Shown here piece by piece: positions 4,394 to 28,960 of a stretch of 32,556 bases of DNA. The stretch comes from Terriglobia bacterium. GTDB taxonomy: Bacteria; Acidobacteriota; Terriglobia; Bryobacterales; Bryobacteraceae. Location: NCBI GenBank assembly GCA_025350105.1, contig JANXYJ010000091.1, positions 1 through 32,556 of the forward strand, in the 5' to 3' direction. Made by a program: the position numbers and the translations under genes. The notes under the pieces were generated by a model that saw only the letters and a program-made list of their open reading frames with translations, was not told the DNA's origin and searched no databases. Within the stretch, counting starts at the first letter, position 1; the number at the start of each line of letters is the position of its first letter.

Positions 4394-4515
4394 CTCCACT
4401 ACCTTTAGTACTGGCCTCGGTACGGGCATTTTTCCTTTTCCGCATAAAATTTCTGATTCTAGGCCCCTTGGCACGTAGTAGGATAGAGGAGCGAGTTGCA
4501 TACCCGCATCCATAT

Positions 4516-5076
4516 ATGTGGAACCGCCGCAAAGACGAAACTCCTGCTCCAACCAGCAAACCGGCATCGGCTCCGCCCACGCCGTCTGAACTTGCCAAAG
4601 AAGGAATCCCCATGTCCACCTTACCCAGCCGCCCCGCTGAATCTGGTTTCGACCCTGCGCGCGGAGGCACGGCGGTGTTGGGGAAATCCGTGATCGTCAA
4701 AGGGCAGATTTTTGGCCGCGAGGATTTGACGATTGACGGCGAGGTGGAAGGCACGGTGGAGTTGCAGGAACACCGCTTGACGGTGGGCCCCAATGGAAAA
4801 GTCACCGCCAGTGTGAAAGCCCGCGAAGTGGTGGCGCTGGGCACCATTCACGGCAACGTGGAAGCCCGCGACAAAGTGGAAATCCGCAAGGAAGCCAAGC
4901 TGGTGGGCGATATTCGTACGGCGCGCATCGTCATCGACGACGGGGCGTACTTTAAAGGCAACATTGATATTGTGCGGGCGGAAGCGCCGAGGGTGGCGTC
5001 GGCTCCCAAGCCGGCGGTACCGGTGGCGCCAACCGGAACAAGTCCTGGGCCGGGCAACGGTGGGCCCGCTAAATAA
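4516..5076 (+). CDS. Bactofilin (polymer-forming cytoskeletal protein)
   Basis: A 186-residue bactofilin. These proteins self-assemble without nucleotide into filaments or membrane-bound patches that place cell-wall enzymes and other factors. The core (about residues 50-160) is a right-handed beta-helix seen as short repeated strands: GKSVIVKGQIFGREDLTIDG, EVEGTVELQEHRLTVGPNG, ASVKAREVVALGTIHGNVEARDKVEI and LVGDIRTARIVIDDGAYFKGNI. The flanks are disordered, rich in Pro and Ala, as is usual. The start MWNRRKDE at 4516 is chosen because many bactofilins begin this way and can touch the membrane through this end; a TTG start at 4468 would also be in frame. No strong ribosome-binding site is visible. 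A methyltransferase gene follows after 11 bp. Confidence 0.9.
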   Translation: MWNRRKDETPAPTSKPASAPPTPSELAKEGIPMSTLPSRPAESGFDPARGGTAVLGKSVIVKGQIFGREDLTIDGEVEGTVELQEHRLTVGPNGKVTASVKAREVVALGTIHGNVEARDKVEIRKEAKLVGDIRTARIVIDDGAYFKGNIDIVRAEAPRVASAPKPAVPVAPTGTSPGPGNGGPAK

Positions 5077-7478: not shown

Positions 7479-7568
7479 GGTGAGGTGGCAGAGTGGTCGA
7501 ATGCGGCGGTCTCGAAAACCGTTGAACCTTCACGGGTTCCGTGAGTTCGAATCTCACCCTCACCGCCA
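7479..7568 (+). tRNA. tRNA-Ser (anticodon CGA)
   Basis: A complete cloverleaf with the long variable arm of class II tRNAs. The acceptor stem pairs GGTGAGG (7479-7485) with CCTCACC (7558-7564), then discriminator G and an encoded CCA (7566-7568). The anticodon stem GCGGT/ACCGT encloses the loop CTCGAAA, giving anticodon CGA for UCG codons. The T arm is GTGAG-TTCGAAT-CTCAC. No integrase gene or copy of the 3' end was seen nearby, so the tRNA does not appear to mark an island edge. Confidence 0.96.
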
Positions 7569-7777: not shown

Positions 7778-9319
7778 ATGAAATTCATTCTCAACGTGAT
7801 CTGGAACTGGCTCGGCGTGATGATGAGCATCGTCATCGGCATGGCGCTGACCCCCTATATCCTGGCGAAATTGGGCGCGAATGGCTACGGTGTCTGGACG
7901 CTGTCATTTTCGCTGATTGAGTCACTCACTTTATTTGATTTCGGTCTGCGGTCGGCTGGGGTGAAATACGTTTCGCACTATTACACGATTGGGGACCGCG
8001 ACAAACTGGCGGAGGTTCTCCACACCTCGTTTGTGTGGGCGGTGTGCATGGGCGGGACGCTGTTCGCGGGAGTTTTACTGTTCGCGCCTTTCGCCGCTTC
8101 GCACTACCACATCTCCGAACAATACAAGAGCCAGTTTCCGGTGCTGCTGATGCTGATCGGCGGCAGCTTCGCCGTCGGCCTCACCTTCAACCAGATACGC
8201 AATGCCATCGACGCCGTGCAGCGGTTCGATCTCACCAACCGGGCGGCGATTCTGGGAACTTTCATCCGGGGCCTGGGCACTTTTCTGCTGCTGAGAGCCG
8301 GGTACGGACTGGTGGAAATTTGTATCTTGACCATCGCTTCGCAAATCTTCACTTATGTCCTGAACTATGTGGATTTCCGGCGCGTTTTTCCCGGACAAAC
8401 GATTTCTTTCGCGCGCTCCAACTGGGCCATGTTTAAGCAACTGGCGTCCTACGGCATCCATACGTTTTTCACCACGCTGGCGTACCTGGGCTTGATGCAA
8501 GGGCCGCCCATCGTGTTGGCGCAGTTGCGGTCGGATACTGAAGTGGGCTATTTCAGCCTGCCCGCCCGCCTGGTGAATTACCTGAGTGAAGCGGTGGGCC
8601 GCATCGCCGTGGTGACCGCCACTAGCGTCACCGCGCTGGTAGCCAAGGGGCAGATGGACGAGGTGCGCAAAATGGCGTCCTATCCCAACCGCTACACGCT
8701 GGCCCTATTCTTCCCGGTGGCCATCTGGTTGTTCTCGCACGGCGAACGCTTCCTTCTGGTACTGGCCAAGCCTGCGGTGGTGGAACAAAGCATGCGGGTT
8801 TTGCCGTGGGTTGTCGCCGGTACGCTGATCGGCTTCATCGGGCAGATCAATTCGTTCAATTTGCTGGTGGCGATGGGGCGGCATAGCGGCGCGGCGCGCA
8901 TGATGGCGCTGGAGGCCGCGGCGCTGGTGGCCGGCATGTACTGGTTAGTGCCCAGCTACGGGATCTCCGCCGCAGCGTGGTTGAGCGGAGGACTGATGGC
9001 CCTGAACCGCGGCTTTCTGATCCCCATCATCGTGGTTCGCGTGCTGAACCTGCGCTACGTCTCTTATATGACGTCCATCTATGTGCGCCCCGCGCTGGTG
9101 GCGATTCCCGTTTGCGCCTTGTCGTATTTTCTGGCTTCGGCCATACCCGATCCGGCCAGCACATCGAAACTGGTGCGGGTGGCCGGGTTGTTGGGACAGG
9201 CCGGGTTCATCGCGGCGGTCTATTGCGCCATCGCCTATTTTGCGGTTCTGCTGCCGGAACACCGGCAGATGGTGAAGGGCGGAATCGAGCGGCGGTGGAC
9301 GGCGCTGCGCGCGGCGTAG
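7778..9319 (+). CDS. Polysaccharide/oligosaccharide flippase (Wzx/MurJ-like, MOP superfamily)
   Basis: A 513-residue integral membrane protein with about 12-14 hydrophobic segments along its length. It begins MKFILNVIWNWLGVMMSIVIGMALTPYIL, followed by LGANGYGVWTLSFSLIE, the signature of the polysaccharide biosynthesis (RfbX/Wzx) branch of the MOP exporter superfamily. Such proteins flip lipid-linked sugar units across the inner membrane for capsule, O-antigen or exopolysaccharide assembly. No glycosyltransferase genes lie next to it here, so it is an isolated copy, which is unusual because Wzx genes normally sit in sugar clusters. The ATG at 7778 has no strong ribosome-binding site. The 209-bp gap after the tRNA holds nothing else that can be supported. 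Confidence 0.88.
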   Translation: MKFILNVIWNWLGVMMSIVIGMALTPYILAKLGANGYGVWTLSFSLIESLTLFDFGLRSAGVKYVSHYYTIGDRDKLAEVLHTSFVWAVCMGGTLFAGVLLFAPFAASHYHISEQYKSQFPVLLMLIGGSFAVGLTFNQIRNAIDAVQRFDLTNRAAILGTFIRGLGTFLLLRAGYGLVEICILTIASQIFTYVLNYVDFRRVFPGQTISFARSNWAMFKQLASYGIHTFFTTLAYLGLMQGPPIVLAQLRSDTEVGYFSLPARLVNYLSEAVGRIAVVTATSVTALVAKGQMDEVRKMASYPNRYTLALFFPVAIWLFSHGERFLLVLAKPAVVEQSMRVLPWVVAGTLIGFIGQINSFNLLVAMGRHSGAARMMALEAAALVAGMYWLVPSYGISAAAWLSGGLMALNRGFLIPIIVVRVLNLRYVSYMTSIYVRPALVAIPVCALSYFLASAIPDPASTSKLVRVAGLLGQAGFIAAVYCAIAYFAVLLPEHRQMVKGGIERRWTALRAA

Positions 9320-9429
9320 GAGCCCGTTGGACGGTGCGCAATGACGCTCCATTACGGTCGCGGCTTGGTGCGGGGATTAGGTGGCGGGATTCGTTGCAGG
9401 GATTATAGGATCAAGAGAGTCGCTACCAC

Positions 9430-9533
9430 ACAAGCTACCGACACAAGCTACCGACACAAACTACCGACACAAGCTACCGACACAAGCTACCAGAACAAAC
9501 CACCAACACGAACCACCAGCACAAACCGCAGGT
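9430..9533. repeat. Array of eight 13-bp tandem repeats
   Basis: The unit ACAAGCTACCGAC repeats every 13 bp from 9430. Copies 1, 2 and 4 are identical, copy 3 differs by one base, and copies 5-8 drift towards ACAAACCACCAGC and ACAAACCGCAGGT. A further degraded unit precedes the array. The array ends 20 bp before the ATG at 9553, so it lies in the promoter or leader region of that gene. Thirteen is not a multiple of three, so it is not a coding repeat. A related set is found at 13455-13493. Confidence 0.9.
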
Positions 9534-11481: not shown

Positions 11482-12216
11482 ATGCCGCGCCCCAAGTTCC
11501 TGATCGCCATCGCCGCCGCATTTGCGCTGGCCCTCATCGGCCTAAGCTTGGCCGTTCCCACCGCCGCGGCCTGTGCTTTAGTGCAACATCAGGGTCTGCA
11601 AAAGCTCGAGCAGACCCTAATCGAACCTGACGCTTCTGAGCAAGATCGCGCGCGCTTTCTGCAACTCGCCACGGATGCTCGTGCGCGGATCACGCGGACT
11701 TTCGGCGCTCCCCACGCACCGGCTGAGTTGGTCTTTCTGCAACGGCGCACGAAACTCTGGCCGCTCGCTTCGGTCGGTTCGTTTGGCAGCACGTTGATGA
11801 TCGGCACGCGTGCGTGCGTAATTATCGGACCCAAAGGCCAGAGTGTCGACGTCGTCGCTCATGAGCTGATGCACGCGGAACTGTTGGATCGCGTCGGCTT
11901 CTGGGGAAGGCTCACGCGCATCCCGGTGTGGTTCGACGAAGGCGTGGGAATGCAGGTGGATTACCGGCCGGATTTCAATCTTCCTCAGGCGTCTGGCGAG
12001 GCGCTCTCGCAGACTGGCCCACAGACTGACTACGTCCGGCGGCTGAAAACTGTACACCAGTTCTCTGACGTGAACACCCACCAGTTGATTTGGAACTACG
12101 TAGCCGCAAAAGCGGAAGTGGCGCGCTGGCTAGCTGCAGCGGGTCCAGGCAATTTGTATCCACAGCTCCAGCGCATTCGCAATGGTGAGACGTTGGAAAA
12201 AGTGCTTCAGCAATAA
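11482..12216 (+). CDS. Signal-anchored HExxH metallopeptidase-like protein
   Basis: A 244-residue protein with an N-terminal hydrophobic segment (about residues 7-30, ending AAACALVQ) that could be a signal peptide or anchor. It has VVAHELMHAELL (H127, E128, H131) and IPVWFDEGVGMQVDYRP, with E153 as probable third zinc ligand, the same HExxH...WF(N/D)EG pattern as the gene before it. The proteins differ elsewhere: this one has no TPR region. The family is unnamed to my knowledge; gluzincin fold is inferred from the motif spacing. The start ATG at 11482 has AGGTGAGGA about 16 nt upstream, rather far for a ribosome-binding site. Threonine synthase follows after 35 bp. Confidence 0.75.
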   Translation: MPRPKFLIAIAAAFALALIGLSLAVPTAAACALVQHQGLQKLEQTLIEPDASEQDRARFLQLATDARARITRTFGAPHAPAELVFLQRRTKLWPLASVGSFGSTLMIGTRACVIIGPKGQSVDVVAHELMHAELLDRVGFWGRLTRIPVWFDEGVGMQVDYRPDFNLPQASGEALSQTGPQTDYVRRLKTVHQFSDVNTHQLIWNYVAAKAEVARWLAAAGPGNLYPQLQRIRNGETLEKVLQQ

Positions 12217-12251
12217 GCGGCGGCACATTTTCGTAGTAATATTCGAAAACC

Positions 12252-13433
12252 ATGCCCAACGTCACTCACCTGGAATGCAGCCTCTGCAATAAACACTTCG
12301 AAGCCCGCAAAATTCACAATTTGTGTTCGTGCGGCGGCGCTCTATTGGTGCGGTACGACCTGGCAACCATTCGCAAGGATTGGGATCGCGACACTCTTTT
12401 CGCCGCCAAGCCTGACATGTGGCGCTACTGGCCGGTGCTGCCGCCGAATCATCGCAACTCCATCATCAGTTTGGGCGAAGGCATGACGCCCATCATTCAC
12501 ACCAAACGCCTGGGCGCGAAGTTGGGTATGGATCAGCTTTACGTAAAAGACGAAGGACTGAATCCCACCGGCTCCTTCAAAGCCCGGGGCATGACCACCG
12601 CTATTTCCATGGCGCGCGAGTTGGGCATCATGAAAGTGGCCGTGCCCTCCGCCGGAAATGCCGCCAGCGCGGCTGCGGCGTATGCGGCAGCGGCTGGAAT
12701 TGAGGCGCACATCTTCATGCCGAAGGATGTTCCGCAGGCCAATTTCATCGAATGCAAAGCGCTGGGCGCGCACGTCACTTTGGTCGACGGCCTGATCAGC
12801 GATTGCGCCCGCATCGTCACCGAACGCAAAGACCAGGAAGGCTGGTTCGACCTGAGCACGCTGAAGGAGCCCTATCGCATCGAAGGCAAAAAAACCATGG
12901 GCTACGAAGTGGCCGAGCAATTCGATTGGGAACTGCCCGACGCCATTTTCTACCCCACCGGCGGCGGCGTGGGTTTGATCGGCATGTGGAAAGCGTTCGA
13001 GGAAATGGAAGCGCTGGGTTGGATTTCAAAGAAACGCCCCAAGATGATTGCCGTGCAGGCCGCCGGTTGCCAGCCCATTGTGCGCGCATTTGAAAAAGGC
13101 GAATCGCGCAGCGAATTCTGGCAAGGCGCAGCAACAATCGCCAGCGGCCTGCGCGTGCCCAAACCGTTGGGCGATGTTTTGATTCTGGATGCCCTGCGCG
13201 AAAGCCATGGCACCGCCATTGCGATTGACGACACCGAGATCATCGACGGCGGCATTGAACTGGCGAACCTGGAAGGCATGTTCGTGGCACCGGAGGGCGC
13301 GGCCTGCATCGGCGCCCTAAGAAAATTGTTGGCCAATGGATTTCTTTCGCCCAGCGAACGCGTCGTGATCTACAACACCGGCGCGGGATTGAAGTATCTG
13401 GAATCCTACGCCGAAGGTTTTCCGCGCGTCTAA
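12252..13433 (+). CDS. thrC: Threonine synthase
   Basis: A 393-residue pyridoxal-phosphate enzyme that converts O-phosphohomoserine to threonine in the cytoplasm. The PLP lysine is K110 in PTGSFKARG, and the phosphate loop is PSAGNAASAAAAYAAAAG and YPTGGGVGLIG. The N terminus carries a zinc-ribbon-like element, CSLCNKHF...CSCGGALLVRYDL, which marks the class of threonine synthases found in archaea and several bacterial phyla rather than the longer E. coli type. GEGMTPI and the ending YNTGAGLKYLE agree with the family. A cysteate synthase or another fold-II enzyme is possible but less likely. No other threonine-pathway gene is adjacent. Confidence 0.9.
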   Translation: MPNVTHLECSLCNKHFEARKIHNLCSCGGALLVRYDLATIRKDWDRDTLFAAKPDMWRYWPVLPPNHRNSIISLGEGMTPIIHTKRLGAKLGMDQLYVKDEGLNPTGSFKARGMTTAISMARELGIMKVAVPSAGNAASAAAAYAAAAGIEAHIFMPKDVPQANFIECKALGAHVTLVDGLISDCARIVTERKDQEGWFDLSTLKEPYRIEGKKTMGYEVAEQFDWELPDAIFYPTGGGVGLIGMWKAFEEMEALGWISKKRPKMIAVQAAGCQPIVRAFEKGESRSEFWQGAATIASGLRVPKPLGDVLILDALRESHGTAIAIDDTEIIDGGIELANLEGMFVAPEGAACIGALRKLLANGFLSPSERVVIYNTGAGLKYLESYAEGFPRV

Positions 13434-13454
13434 AACGTCATACACGCGTCGGAC

Positions 13455-13493
13455 AAAAACCACCAGCGTAAACCGCCAGCGAAATGCTACCGT
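13455..13493. repeat. Three degenerate 13-bp repeats related to the 9430 array
   Basis: The units AAAAACCACCAGC, GTAAACCGCCAGC and GAAATGCTACCGT follow each other with a 13-bp period. The first two closely match the last copies at 9508-9533 (ACGAACCACCAGC, ACAAACCGCAGGT). As at the first site, they end just before a start codon (13500). The small palindrome GCTACCGTAGC (13486-13496) overlaps the last unit. Confidence 0.6.
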
Positions 13494-13499
13494 AGCGAA

Positions 13500-13895
13500 A
13501 TGGGCTTAGAAAGCAGCCCTGCGGATCCGTTGCCGATTCCGCAGGTTGCGCCGTCCACCACATCGGAGTCTGCCGAACGAAAACCCAGCGCGGAGTCAGC
13601 CGAGCGCAAACGAAGACGTAGCCTGGAGCCGGAGGCCAAGGCCAAAGCTATCATGCGCGTGTTGGCCGGGGAACCCAAAGCCAGCGTCGCCGCCGAGCTG
13701 GGCGTGTCCATCGACCGCATGGAACGTTGGCAATCCACCTTTTACAACGCAGGCGTGGAGGCCTTGGCCAACAAATCCAGCTCCCGCAAAAGCGTCAAAT
13801 TCAAACCGGGTTCGGGGACCTTGGGCCAATGGGCTCTACTAGCGTTGATCCTGATCGCCAGCATCGTGATGTTGGTGCGGATGTTGACGCCGTAG
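13500..13895 (+). CDS. Transposase-type helix-turn-helix protein with C-terminal membrane anchor
   Basis: A 131-residue protein of unusual make-up. Residues 1-44 are charged and disordered, with a repeated ESAERK. Residues 45-90 (EAKAKAIMRVLAGEPKASVA, then AELGVSIDRMERWQSTFYNA) match the helix-turn-helix found at the start of IS3-type transposases and related small HTH domains. Residues 109-127 (GQWALLALILIASIVMLVRM) form one transmembrane helix, with only a few residues behind it, so the protein should be tail-anchored with the HTH in the cytoplasm. No transposase catalytic domain is present. It may be a domesticated HTH that acts from the membrane on DNA or as an adaptor. The gene stands between thrC and a secreted amidohydrolase, behind 13-bp repeats. 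Confidence 0.75.
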   Translation: MGLESSPADPLPIPQVAPSTTSESAERKPSAESAERKRRRSLEPEAKAKAIMRVLAGEPKASVAAELGVSIDRMERWQSTFYNAGVEALANKSSSRKSVKFKPGSGTLGQWALLALILIASIVMLVRMLTP

Positions 13896-13968
13896 CATGC
13901 GCGTGATCCTTTGCGCCTTCACCGTTCTTGTTCAGTAGTCGAAAGCCCAGGTATGTCAAAGTGTAGGT

Positions 13969-15579
13969 ATGCGAAAACCGTTCTTTAGCTTCGTATGCGT
14001 GTTGATTCTTGCCACGGCCGCACCGGCGCAAACTGCTGCTCAAAAAGTCTCGCCTGAAAAAGCCGCCAGCATCAAAGCTGATCTGATGGGCCAAATCGAC
14101 GGCATGAAGAAGCAGGCTCAGGTGATGACGGACACCGTCTTCAGCTTCGGCGAGCTGGGCTTTCAGGAATTCGAGACCTCAAAGTACCTAACCGAAATGC
14201 TGGAAAAAGAAGGCTTCAAAATCGAACGCGGCGTGGCTGGCATTCCCACTGCGTTCGTCGCAACCTGGGGACAAGGCAAGCCGGTGATCGCGTTGGGCTC
14301 TGACATCGACGATATTCCGCAGGCCTCGCAGAAGCCTTCTGTGCCGTATCACGCGCCGATGATTGATGGCGCGCCGGGGCACGGAGAAGGTCACAACTCC
14401 GGCATGCCGCTGAATATCCTGGCCGCTCTGGCGGTGAAGAAAGTGATGGAGCGCGAACATCTCACCGGCACGCTCAAAATATGGCCCGGCGTAGCCGAAG
14501 AACAATTGGGTACGAAAGCGTTTTATGTCCGCGCGGGCCTTTTTAAAGATGTTGACGTTGTGTTGTTCGCGCACGTGGGCGATAATTTCCGCGTCGCCGC
14601 CGGGCCCGGCGGGCAAACCGGACTGGTCTCCATCGAATATACATTTCAGGGTGAATCCGCGCATGCCGCCGGTGCCCCTTGGCGTGGCCGCAGCGCGCTG
14701 GATGCCGTGGAACTGATGGACATCGGCTGGAATTTCCGCCGCGAACACATTCGCGTGGGGAGCCGGGTGCACTACGTCATCACCAACGGAGGCGACCAGC
14801 CCAACGTGGTGCCCTCCAACGCCAGCGTCTGGTATTACTACCGCGAAGCCGATTATCAACATGTGATGGACTTATGGAAAATCGGCGACGACATGTCGAA
14901 GGCGGCGGCACTGATGACCGGCACGACAGTGAGTTCACGTTTGTTAGGCGCAGCCTGGCCCGGGCACTTCAACGTGCCCATCGCCGAAGCCATGCACGAC
15001 AACATGACCAAGGTGGGTTTGCCGCAATGGTCGGAGCAGGACCAGGCCCTGGCGAAAGCGCTGCAGCACGAACTGAAAGTTCCCGAGCGTGGATTGGCAG
15101 CGAAGATTCCGGAACTGAAAAAGCCGCAGCCTCCTGCAGATGATGATAACGGCGTGGGCGGCGTCGGTGGCGGCTCCGATGACATCGGCGACGTGTCTTG
15201 GGTGGTGCCCACCGTGACGCTGAACTATCCATCGAATATTCCCGGCGGCCCCGGCCACAATTGGGCCAATGGAGTTTCCATGGCGACGCCGATCGCGCAC
15301 AAAGGAGTGATCGCCGGCGCCAAGGTGCAGGCGATGACGATGTTGGATCTGCTTACACAACCCGAGTTGGTGACCAAAGCCTGGGACTACTTCCGCGACG
15401 TACAGACCAAGGACACCAAATACCAAAGCTTCCTGCGCCCCGACGACAAGCCGGCCATCTGGCTGAACCAGAAAATCATGGAACAATACCGTCCCAAGAT
15501 GAAAGAGATGTATTACGATCCACTGAAATACGACACGTATCTGGATCAACTGGGGATTAAATATGGGGATGGGAAGTAG
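13969..15579 (+). CDS. Secreted M20-family amidohydrolase, AbgB-like
   Basis: A 536-residue exported metal-dependent amidohydrolase. The signal peptide runs MRKPFFSFVCVLILATAAPAQ. The peptidase M20 core is visible: ALGSDIDDIPQ (residues 108-117, metal-binding aspartates), GHGEGHNSG (137-145, with H138 and H142), GVAEEQLG (catalytic glutamate pair 177-178) and ESAHAAGAPWRGRSALDA in the lid domain. The order and length fit AbgB, the p-aminobenzoyl-glutamate hydrolase subunit B family. The position usually held by Cys in GHxCGH is Glu140 here, a variant seen in secreted relatives. A Gly/Asp-rich loop (DDDNGVGGVGGGSDD, about residue 388-402) is an insertion. The natural substrate is probably an acylated amino acid or peptide outside the cytoplasm; it cannot be fixed from the sequence. 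Confidence 0.88.
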   Translation: MRKPFFSFVCVLILATAAPAQTAAQKVSPEKAASIKADLMGQIDGMKKQAQVMTDTVFSFGELGFQEFETSKYLTEMLEKEGFKIERGVAGIPTAFVATWGQGKPVIALGSDIDDIPQASQKPSVPYHAPMIDGAPGHGEGHNSGMPLNILAALAVKKVMEREHLTGTLKIWPGVAEEQLGTKAFYVRAGLFKDVDVVLFAHVGDNFRVAAGPGGQTGLVSIEYTFQGESAHAAGAPWRGRSALDAVELMDIGWNFRREHIRVGSRVHYVITNGGDQPNVVPSNASVWYYYREADYQHVMDLWKIGDDMSKAAALMTGTTVSSRLLGAAWPGHFNVPIAEAMHDNMTKVGLPQWSEQDQALAKALQHELKVPERGLAAKIPELKKPQPPADDDNGVGGVGGGSDDIGDVSWVVPTVTLNYPSNIPGGPGHNWANGVSMATPIAHKGVIAGAKVQAMTMLDLLTQPELVTKAWDYFRDVQTKDTKYQSFLRPDDKPAIWLNQKIMEQYRPKMKEMYYDPLKYDTYLDQLGIKYGDGK

Positions 15580-15596
15580 CGCCACCTATTGTAAGA

Positions 15597-16025
15597 TCAG
15601 CGAATCGCCACGTTGTGTGCCGCCGCCGCGCCCAGGCCTCCGGCAATGGCAACATTCATCCAGCCGAATGTTTTGTACAATTTCGGGTTGTGATGCAGTG
15701 CCCAGCGCTGAATCACGAAGGACGTCCCCAGCAATCCGGCTTTGATGGCCAGTGACCCAGCGCCAAAATTCCCGCCGGACTTTGCCAGCAGCGGATTCCC
15801 TTCGCTTTGGTTCCAACTGGAAAACGTATCCGCCCCGTTGGCGGCGAACACTGCCACTTGTGACCAGCGATAGAACGTCCGGCCATCGACGGGCTGATAC
15901 TTTGTTTCGGGAAACTGTACCGCGTGGCCCAGCGCAGCCGAGGCCGCGGCAGACGGCGAAACAAACGCCGGCGATTGCGCCATTAGCGGCAATGCCAATA
16001 TCAAGAGAAGCAACCCGATTTTCAT
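15597..16025 (-). CDS. Small exported protein of unknown function
   Basis: A 142-residue protein. The start at 16025 is decided by a strong ribosome-binding site on the minus strand (GGTAGGAGG, about 5 nt before ATG) and gives a clean signal peptide MKIGLLLLILALPLMAQ. The mature part contains TFYRWSQVAVFAANGADTFSSWNQ and a stretch of Gly/Ala-rich segments (FGAGSLAIKAGLLGTSFVIQ, MNVAIAGGLGAAAAHN) that may be two membrane-embedded or amphipathic helices. I do not recognise a named family. It converges with the amidohydrolase gene and is divergent from the membrane protein at 16191, sharing a 165-bp intergenic region with repeated AATCAT motifs. Confidence 0.75.
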   Translation of the reverse strand: MKIGLLLLILALPLMAQSPAFVSPSAAASAALGHAVQFPETKYQPVDGRTFYRWSQVAVFAANGADTFSSWNQSEGNPLLAKSGGNFGAGSLAIKAGLLGTSFVIQRWALHHNPKLYKTFGWMNVAIAGGLGAAAAHNVAIR

Positions 16026-22571: not shown

Positions 22572-23723
22572 ATGAAGACCAGCACAGACCGCATTTTGAC
22601 AACGCACGTCGGCAGCCTGCCGCGCCCTCAGGATGTGGTGGATCTATTGTTTGCACAGGACCGCGGCGAAGCGGTGGATATGAAGCTGTTCGACACCGTG
22701 ATGACGCGTGGCGTCAACGACGCGGTGAAGAAGCAGGTGCAATCGGGCGTGGATATCGTCAGCGATGGCGAGACCAGTAAGATCAGCTACGCCACCTACA
22801 TCCGCCATCGTCTGACTGGCTTTGAAGGGGATTCGGCCCGTCCCACCCCGCAGGATCTGGACGATTTTCCGGAATACCGCGATCGCCTGGTGGCCGCCGG
22901 ACACTCGGCGACTTATAAGCGGCCGGTGTGCAAGGGTCCCATCCAAGTGAAGGATTTGAGCGCGCTCAAGAAAGATATTGAGAATCTGAAAACGTCGGCA
23001 GCGGCCAACAACGCCGGCGAAGCATTTATGAATTCGGTTTCGCCGGGCACCATCGCCGTATTCCAGCCGAACGAATACTATCCGTCGCACGAAGCGTATT
23101 TAGGCGCCCTGGCCGACGCCATGCGCGACGAATACGAAATGATCGCCAACTCCGGTTTGCTGCTGCAGTTGGATTGTCCGGATCTTGCCATGGGGCGCCA
23201 CTCGCGCTTCAAGAAACTTTCCGACGAAGAATTTTTGCGCAACGCCGAAATGCAGGTGGAGGCGCTGAATCACGCGCTGAAAAACGTTCCAGCGGACCGC
23301 GTGCGCTTGCATGTGTGTTGGGGCAACTATGAAGGCAGCCACGTCCACGATATGGACTGCCGCAAGATCTTCCCCATCGCCATAAAAGTGAAACCCATGG
23401 CGCTGCTGGTGGAGGCGTCCAACCCGCGTCACGAGCACGAATACCAGGCTTGGAAGGACATCAAACTCCCGGATGACAAAGTGCTGGTGCCGGGTGTGAT
23501 CGCTTCAAGTTCCAATTACGTGGAGCACCCGGAAGTGGTCGCGATGCGCCTGATCAATTTCGCCAACGTAGTCGGCAAGGAACGCGTGATCGCTGGTACG
23601 GACTGCGGTTTCGGAACTTTTGCGGGATTTGGTGCCGTCTATCCGGAATTCTGCTGGATGAAGATGAAATCGATGGCCGAAGGCGCCGCGATTGCCACCA
23701 AGAAGCTGTGGGGCAAGAACTAA
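22572..23723 (+). CDS. Cobalamin-independent methionine synthase (MetE) C-terminal-like methyltransferase
   Basis: A 383-residue protein equal to the catalytic C-terminal half of MetE; the N-terminal half is absent. It opens with RILTTHVGSLPRP, the family's usual start. The zinc site is visible as H247-x-C249 in LHVCWGNYEG and C345 in AGTDCGFG. QLDCPDLAM holds another conserved acid region. Such short MetE relatives transfer a methyl or alkyl group between thiols, and their donors vary (methyltetrahydrofolate, methylcobalamin protein, epoxyalkane for coenzyme M transferases), so methionine formation is only one option. AGGAG about 13 nt before the ATG is the only ribosome-binding candidate. 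A strong terminator follows. Confidence 0.85.
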   Translation: MKTSTDRILTTHVGSLPRPQDVVDLLFAQDRGEAVDMKLFDTVMTRGVNDAVKKQVQSGVDIVSDGETSKISYATYIRHRLTGFEGDSARPTPQDLDDFPEYRDRLVAAGHSATYKRPVCKGPIQVKDLSALKKDIENLKTSAAANNAGEAFMNSVSPGTIAVFQPNEYYPSHEAYLGALADAMRDEYEMIANSGLLLQLDCPDLAMGRHSRFKKLSDEEFLRNAEMQVEALNHALKNVPADRVRLHVCWGNYEGSHVHDMDCRKIFPIAIKVKPMALLVEASNPRHEHEYQAWKDIKLPDDKVLVPGVIASSSNYVEHPEVVAMRLINFANVVGKERVIAGTDCGFGTFAGFGAVYPEFCWMKMKSMAEGAAIATKKLWGKN

Positions 23724-23786: not shown

Positions 23787-23820
23787 CCAGGAGGAGCAGT
23801 TGCCATTTCCCCCTGGTTTT
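23787..23820 (+). terminator. Second, imperfect terminator-like hairpin
   Basis: CCAGGAGG (23787-23794) pairs with CCCCCTGG (23809-23816) with one mismatch, followed by TTTT. It resembles the hairpin at 24891-24922 read on the other strand (both have CCAGGAG...GCAGTTGC), so it may be a dispersed element. Confidence 0.4.
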
Positions 23821-23878
23821 GCCCGGAGTTGGTTTCGCCCGGAGTTGGTTTTGCCCGGAGTTGGTTTCGCCCGGAGTC
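23815..23878. repeat. Four 16-bp tandem repeats
   Basis: The unit GGTTTTGCCCGGAGTT alternates with GGTTTCGCCCGGAGTT, so the array is also a 32-bp unit repeated twice; the last base of copy four differs. It lies between the terminator and the 3' end of the minus-strand gene at 23889. It is short, has no spacers and is not a CRISPR. Confidence 0.9.
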
Positions 23879-28214: not shown

Positions 28215-28598
28215 ATGGCTGTTAAAGAAAACAATTCTTCCATTTGCGAGTCTGAGAAAGGGTCCCTCGAGGGTCCGGCGGTCACTCGAGACCAAATGAC
28301 TCGAGTATGCCTGCAGGCATCCCAACAGGTTCGTGCTTGGCTAGAGCACGCTCCTACTGCGCGTTATGCTCAAGTACTATCTGAACATGATGGCTTTTGG
28401 TTAAATATTCTGGAGGGTTCACGCATGACCGCTTTCCATCGAAGCCGGAAGCGTCGTGCCCGAATTACAGATGCCACCATTAGCGCGGATTGGGCGATGG
28501 TCGGCCGCGATATGTGTAATGCAGTACTTGCCTTTGAGCAAGAGCAATGGCCGATAAACCCTCACAACTCCCAAGGGTGTCATCCCAGCAAGAGCTAA
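28215..28598 (+). CDS. Unknown protein encoded before the DUF2335 gene
   Basis: A 127-residue protein using ATG 28215; another ATG three codons earlier (28206) is possible, and an extended frame back to a TTG at 28110 has no support. The middle looks folded and mostly helical: DQMTRVCLQASQQVRAWLEH, APTARYAQVLSEHDGFWLNI, LEGSRMTAFHRSRKRRARIT and DWAMVGRDMCNAVLAFEQEQ. No family was recognised and there is no signal peptide or TM segment. The stop lies 52 bp inside the DUF2335 gene, so translation of the two may be coupled. Its codon use is less GC-rich than the str operon or the methyltransferase next door. Confidence 0.55.
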   Translation: MAVKENNSSICESEKGSLEGPAVTRDQMTRVCLQASQQVRAWLEHAPTARYAQVLSEHDGFWLNILEGSRMTAFHRSRKRRARITDATISADWAMVGRDMCNAVLAFEQEQWPINPHNSQGCHPSKS

Positions 28599-28960
28599 GA
28601 ATCGAAACATCATTTTCCGGTCCGCTCCCTCACCCAGGTTTTCTGGCTGCTTACGAACAGGTGTGCCCTGGAGCCGCTGCAAGAATTATAAAAATGACCG
28701 AAGACCAGGGCGAGCATCGACGAGCCTTGGAATCGCGAATGTGGAGAGACCAGACAATCGAGGCTATAGCCGGGTTATTGTGCGGGTTCATGATAAGTCT
28801 GGCCTTTATTGCAGCCGCAGTCTATACCTCTATTCATGGTCAACCGTGGGTTGGGGGAGTTCTCGGAAGTCTCGGCTTGACGGGATTGGTGACTGCTTTT
28901 ATAAACGGCAAGCCCCACCAAGAAACACCACCACAACGCAAAAAGAGTCAGAAGCGTTGA
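28547..28960 (+). CDS. DUF2335 family membrane protein
   Basis: A 137-residue protein with the DUF2335 signature in order: FSGPLPHPGFLAAYEQVCPG (residues 23-42, the family's GPLPxP...Y...xPGAA motif), ARIIKMTEDQGEHRRALE (46-62) and two transmembrane helices (about 73-93 and 101-119, AIAGLLCGFMISLAFIAAAV and WVGGVLGSLGLTGLVTAFIN), then a Lys/Arg-rich tail. Two-TM proteins of this kind resemble small membrane effectors found in mobile regions, but DUF2335 has no tested activity that I know. It overlaps the unknown gene upstream and stands alone from the str operon by 424 bp. Confidence 0.82.
   Translation: MADKPSQLPRVSSQQELRIETSFSGPLPHPGFLAAYEQVCPGAAARIIKMTEDQGEHRRALESRMWRDQTIEAIAGLLCGFMISLAFIAAAVYTSIHGQPWVGGVLGSLGLTGLVTAFINGKPHQETPPQRKKSQKR

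Follow-up and report, generated by a model that had tools for sequence, protein, structure and literature searches.

A small, rare gene of Bryobacteraceae joins a transposase-like helix-turn-helix to a predicted C-terminal membrane helix

The stretch of Terriglobia DNA analyzed here (the window, 32,556 nucleotides) contains a gene on the forward strand (13500..13895, ATG to TAG) for a 131-aa protein in which a helix-turn-helix (HTH) domain is followed by a single predicted transmembrane (TM) helix at the C-terminus. Proteins of the same layout occur in two other genera of the family, and the three-genome layout, together with a codon pattern common to the window and one of these relatives, makes this look like a real, rare gene at the sequence level. 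The explanation that we favor, at about even chances, is a one-component transcription regulator that is tethered to the membrane and binds DNA through a domain of common ancestry with the HTH of IS3-type OrfA.

The reading frame and its translation were taken from an ORF listing, and the order of elements along the protein was derived from Pfam, hydropathy and AlphaFold2. A charged N-terminus is followed by the HTH domain (13629..13787, forward strand; model helices from residue 44, Pfam match over residues 47-96), a short basic linker and the hydrophobic helix (13818..13889, forward strand; residues 107-129 in the model). The AlphaFold2 model of the window protein, for which the input was a 3-row alignment, is of modest confidence overall (mean pLDDT 66.5, pTM 0.36) and of low confidence in the linker between the HTH and the C-terminal helix; its order of elements agrees with the sequence-based layout. 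The GC content by codon position is 0.56/0.53/0.74, compared with 0.59/0.45/0.72 for the upstream gene, and at third positions the gene resembles its neighbors. Inspection of the charged N-terminal stretch (13566..13610, forward strand) bears out a repeated ESAERK motif that had been remarked on in the first-pass annotation. The two copies (13566-13583 and 13593-13610) lie 27 bases apart, start to start, and carry three synonymous differences and no amino-acid differences. Neither relative shows the duplication, each having one comparable stretch at most, and the repeat is most simply a local duplication within a charged linker.

To describe the HTH domain, we compared it with domain models, with hand-picked protein sets and in a tree. 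The Pfam model HTH_28 matches residues 47-96 of the window protein (E 1.4e-7; 31.9 bits, curated cutoff 25) and matches all three members at E 1 or better. In the AlphaFold2 model the domain consists of helices at residues 44-55, 60-67 and 71-94, with pLDDT of 76-86 in residues 41-90. The domain had earlier been called an HTH of IS3-transposase type, a label that holds as to kinship and falls short as to membership. Pfam's IS3-type model, HTH_Tnp_1, is matched by all six proteins of an OrfA-like set but reaches only 17.0 bits in the window protein, under its cutoff of 24.1. Profile comparison gave E 5.3e-11 to this OrfA-like set over 55 columns, against 3.2e-8 to a set of six IS630-like proteins, both sets having been picked by hand. 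In a tree of 61 short domains, which is based on 66 columns and leaves many forks unresolved, the three members fall on the OrfA-like side, split from the IS630-like and similar domains at 98/97. The window and G049 domains pair in this tree at 94/79, and the three members do not form a single supported clade in it. The OrfA-like and IS630-like labels of other single ORFs were assigned by eye. A fair description is that, among the domains compared, the window HTH appears in sequence somewhat closer to those of IS3 OrfA-like proteins than to those of the IS630-like kind; "IS3-transposase type" would then name the nearest kin among these sets, short of formal membership. In OrfA, a coiled coil follows the HTH. 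The OrfA-like proteins compared here have a charged tail at this place, where the members have the basic linker and the hydrophobic helix, with 1 to 9 residues beyond the hydropathy peak.

Among Pfam matches up to E 10, from which the filters drop most weak ones, there was no OmpR-type winged HTH model. The NCBIfam model SAG1386_EF1546 matches two of the three members; its score in the window protein (28.8 bits, residues 22-75) is far under the cutoff of 80, and the match is probably compositional. The members also matched, weakly, models such as phage CII, terminase small subunit and DrmC. A Foldseek search of the PDB returned no match at E 0.001 or better, the best being 2elh at 0.14. A sequence search of the PDB with the alignment returned the same entry, a CENP-B-type domain, at E 2.3e-6 and no other up to E 0.1; the likeness indicates an HTH and says nothing on function.

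The hydropathy of the C-terminal helix peaks at 2.52 over residues 112-130, ending one residue before the C-terminus, a value matched by only 6 of 20,000 shuffles of the window protein. AlphaFold2 places a helix at residues 107-129 (pLDDT 76-80 in residues 111-130), and the membrane helix, called from hydropathy and this model, is a prediction. The 20 residues that precede it carry a net charge of +5, which agrees with a predicted cytoplasmic N-terminus. Across the three members, the peak values are 2.52, 2.47 and 2.02 (reached by 6, 18 and 102 of 20,000 shuffles), the net charges in the 20 residues before the helix are +5, +5 and +7, and the maxima lie 1, 9 and 9 residues from the C-terminus. 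By eye, the members seem to have no N-terminal signal; the longer of the possible starts in G193 opens with hydrophobic residues. The HTH_28 score and the predicted helix thus agree with the first-pass annotation, which had described a small HTH joined to a single C-terminal TM helix without a catalytic domain, and none of the 6 Pfam families that match the window protein is a catalytic domain.

Members of this layout are rare. In all, 3 of the 237 family genomes contain one, the window's own, G049 and G193, each from a different genus, with lengths of 110-131 aa. The G049 protein is 39% identical to the window protein (E 8.4e-18, query residues 27-128 aligned) and the G193 protein 30% identical (E 1.8e-15 with a two-row profile). 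The family was searched three times (237 genomes, own included), with at most the best 17, 19 and 18 candidates per genome scored. Samples of 399 genomes from the class and 396 from the phylum gave no added member among the best candidates scored, at most 11 per genome in each. Whole-genome searches also covered 101 genomes, 61 genomes around G049 and 61 around G193, the own or center genome counted in, and over all of these searches three genomes had a member. Diverged members may have been missed, because the family, class and phylum searches scored the best candidates per genome only. Neither the other 22 searched genomes of the window's genus nor the sampled congeners of G049 (G274) and of G193 (G041) gave a member. 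The weak matches in these two congeners are without the helix; the G274 frame has 71 residues and lies at the end of a contig.

We then asked how often matching domains are joined to such a helix. The three-member profile matches 105 distinct ORFs in the loci that were read, and only the three members combine an HTH with a C-terminal hydrophobic helix. This test took in 40 additional weak family matches and all loci except four redundant ones; the count leaves aside a handful of weak matches, including repeat copies in G221, and the loci L132 and L133 have no profile match. A smaller test of 62 ORFs gave the same three members. A fourth ORF that passed the hydropathy limit (1.69) was rejected: it aligns at E 0.054, its hydrophobic stretch lies 85 residues from the end, and it reads as a TetR-type regulator. 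The single-protein search of genome_contigs gave no further member, and the alignment search returned the two known loci and two loci of the Magnetospirillum group. In the latter (L056 3-542 and L055 2955-5387) a related HTH lies near the end of the ORF, without a membrane helix. These two domains rank directly after the three members in the profile search (E 8.6e-15 and 2.4e-12).

To assess whether the helix is shared by descent, we scored the helices pairwise (BLOSUM62, ungapped) and compared codons. The scores were 35 for window/G049, 24 for window/G193 and 19 for G049/G193, reached by 0, 1.2 and 0.7% of 5,000 shuffles. As a control, 42 overlapping 19-residue hydrophobic segments of one flippase scored no higher than 13 with the window and G049 helices and up to 20 with the G193 helix, where the score of 19 was reached by 2 of the 42. 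Codon-position identity between the window and G049 genes is 0.59/0.66/0.30 in the HTH and 0.52/0.62/0.29 in the helix. Because positions 1 and 2 agree more than position 3, both parts appear to be under protein-level selection. In the G193 HTH the excess is smaller (0.50/0.55/0.41 with the window, 0.55/0.54/0.34 with G049), and in the G193 helix there is no consistent excess at positions 1 and 2 (0.29/0.43/0.57 with the window, 0.33/0.62/0.52 with G049). For G193, protein-level conservation is thus clear for the HTH only. Common descent of the helix is solid for the window and G049 only, because the pairings with G193 lack the codon signal and flippase segments reach a score of 19. From these comparisons, the helix is clearly common to the window and G049 and probably common to G193 as well.

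The three genes stand in different surroundings. In the window, a PLP-dependent enzyme read as threonine synthase (12252..13433, forward strand; Pfam PALP) ends 66 bases before the gene, and an M20-type peptidase/amidohydrolase with a likely signal peptide by eye (13969..15579, forward strand; Pfam M20_dimer) starts 73 bases after it. The G049 vicinity encodes a short-chain dehydrogenase, an aminotransferase, a TPR protein and an O-antigen ligase (by Pfam). In G193, the gene and a three-gene ABC transporter (ATPase, permease and binding protein), read as sugar-type, are transcribed divergently, with a gap between start codons of 50 bases as placed or 26 with the longer frame; VanZ-like, AAA, NusG-like and ABC-2 genes lie on the other side of the HTH-TM gene. 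By Pfam, no neighbor is common to the three loci. A conserved neighborhood was considered for the window locus and rejected. A thrC match at E 1e-100 or better is present in 18 of the 23 genomes of the window's genus (19 loci), and in the 17 other genomes these loci gave no match at E 1e-3 to the HTH-TM protein or to the proteins encoded on either side of it in the window (18 loci compared, flanks of about 1.5 kb, two of them shorter).

No transposase was found among the 27 neighboring proteins scanned with Pfam, which were selected ORFs (10 from the window, 9 from G049 and 8 from G193). The first-pass annotation had set homologues with the same HTH-TM order outside mobile elements against fragments found only beside insertion sequences; the two relatives, in two other genera, keep the HTH-TM order, and with no transposase among the neighbors scanned, the latter outcome was not observed. 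Eight pairs of inverted repeats were listed at 12200-15700, and those that bracket the gene are 73-75% complementary, lie inside the flanking genes and were rejected as IS ends. A search of 13350-14050 that covered the sigma-70-like type of promoter found none, and three terminator-like sites were predicted on the minus strand, against 1.2 expected by shuffling.

If the protein is a membrane-tethered regulator, its C-terminal helix would insert tail-first into the membrane and the HTH would remain in the cytoplasm. Pairing of the membrane helices, perhaps replacing the pairing role of the OrfA coiled coil, would let two HTHs engage a palindromic or repeated site; at promoters, such binding would repress or activate a few genes. 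As the protein has no extracytoplasmic domain, any signal would need to be relayed through the membrane or a partner protein, or by cleaving the linker. The divergent position beside the ABC transporter in G193 is a usual place for a local regulator. With only three members and no common neighbor, no target can be named. This reading is also weakened by the G193 helix without a consistent codon signal, by the lack of one supported clade in the short-domain tree, by the sigma-70-like promoter search at 13350-14050 that gave none, and by the 22 searched congeners of the window's genome that gave no member.

The layout had been thought unusual, and it is less so than supposed, since DNA-binding domains on a single membrane helix form a known class. 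One survey (PMC10269533) counts 50,302 transmembrane transcription regulators (TTRs) with >100 domains, about 56% of them single-pass, and lists Acidobacteriae among the groups with more TTRs per genome. Like the TTRs as described there, the window protein combines a DNA-binding domain (HTH_28, above cutoff) and a membrane region (here predicted) in one chain, and the layout as such is therefore already known; unlike them, it is small, lacks an extracytoplasmic domain and has an IS-like HTH. In Vibrio parahaemolyticus, the ToxR-type proteins VtrB and VtrA likewise have a cytoplasmic HTH followed by a membrane helix, and VtrB is described in PMC9977878 as an HTH followed by a membrane-tethering helix. 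According to PMC5693285, VtrA cut down to its N-terminal domain and TM helix still activates its target, and the N-terminal domain alone does not. By analogy, this may serve as a precedent for a membrane helix sufficing for regulator activity. The HTH of VtrB and VtrA is, however, of the OmpR winged type rather than HTH_28, and VtrA has a C-terminal domain beyond the membrane that the window protein lacks. ArnR and ArnR1 of Sulfolobus acidocaldarius, as described in PMC6396743, also have an N-terminal HTH and C-terminal membrane segments, but differ by a second membrane helix and by putative HAMP and sensor domains. IS3-family OrfA resembles the window protein by profile and by side of the tree, and differs by its charged tail in place of the hydrophobic helix; the window protein, in turn, matches HTH_Tnp_1 below cutoff and has no adjacent OrfB-type transposase among the scanned neighbors. 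Searches of open-licence papers listed none on point about bacterial transposase HTHs that are membrane-anchored or domesticated.

A more specific form of the regulator, which we consider improbable, is a sensorless, IS-derived one: a transposase-type HTH adopted by the host would have exchanged its coiled-coil tail for a membrane anchor and would now hold specific chromosomal sites at the inner membrane so that expression is controlled by position. If the protein works as the membrane-tethered regulator that we favor, it would show that swapping one short segment can turn the DNA-binding part of a mobile element into such a regulator; with 110-131 aa and no sensor, its members would also be very small natural subjects for the question of whether a tether by itself suffices to regulate.

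It is unlikely, in our view, that the protein is instead a DNA tether, which pins a chromosomal site to the membrane for spatial organization or transertion (in which a gene's expression is coupled to insertion of its product into the membrane) and hardly influences transcription directly. The layout would suffice for this in principle, the next downstream gene in both the window and G049 has a likely signal peptide by eye, and the divergent neighbor in G193 is a transporter. Membrane-bound regulators, too, hold their own locus at the membrane according to PMC9977878. Nevertheless, a general chromosome-anchoring role is argued against by a gene so rare and patchy (3 of 237 family genomes), and the repeats near it, in a search local to the gene, are short and chance-like. 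Chromosome anchoring, which the first-pass annotation had put forward, is possible but unsupported.

We also give a low probability to a horizontally spread accessory gene that serves its own element, for instance by self-regulation, and not the host cell. Single genomes of three genera contain the gene and the sampled congeners G274 and G041 gave no member, the window's two flanking genes were not found around thrC in the genus, and G049 has a tRNA-Val gene some 110 bases upstream, a kind of gene into which mobile elements often integrate. (In the window, the only Rfam match at gathering score is a tRNA at 7479.) However, no relative was found in viral contigs, in a pattern-based scan, or in phages, the matches in plasmids were confined to an IS630 transposase and one hypothetical protein with a short match, and no integrase or other mobility gene is present among the neighbors scanned in the three loci. 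Least probable of all is a relic or chance fusion, an OrfA-like fragment run into a hydrophobic frame with no working gene: the related HTHs in these genomes look mostly transposase-type by eye, the distribution is sporadic and the G193 helix lacks a clear codon-position signal, but an HTH, a similar length and a helix are common to three genomes in three genera, the window/G049 codon pattern fits selection on the protein, the third-position GC is like that of the neighbors and no transposase was found among those scanned. The membrane-tethered regulator remains the reading that we prefer.

Several other features were observed around the three genes and elsewhere in the window. Within 9 kb of the HTH-TM gene, Pfam identifies a bactofilin gene (4468-5076) and a polysaccharide flippase-type gene (7778-9319). 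Surface-polysaccharide genes lie near all three members (the O-antigen ligase in G049, the ABC-2 and NusG-like genes in G193, and the flippase 4 kb upstream in the window), an observation made with no control for how common such genes are. Between the flippase gene and the next there is a tandem array of 13-base GCTACCGACACAA-like units in about 5 to 8 copies (9422-9527). A perfect two-copy 32-base repeat at 23814-23877, made of four similar 16-base units (TGGTTTCGCCCGGAGT), sits downstream of an ORF read as methionine-synthase-like (22572-23723). The ORF at 28547-28960 (137 aa) has a soluble N-terminal part, with hydrophobic stretches toward its C-terminus, and by eye looks like a small membrane protein.
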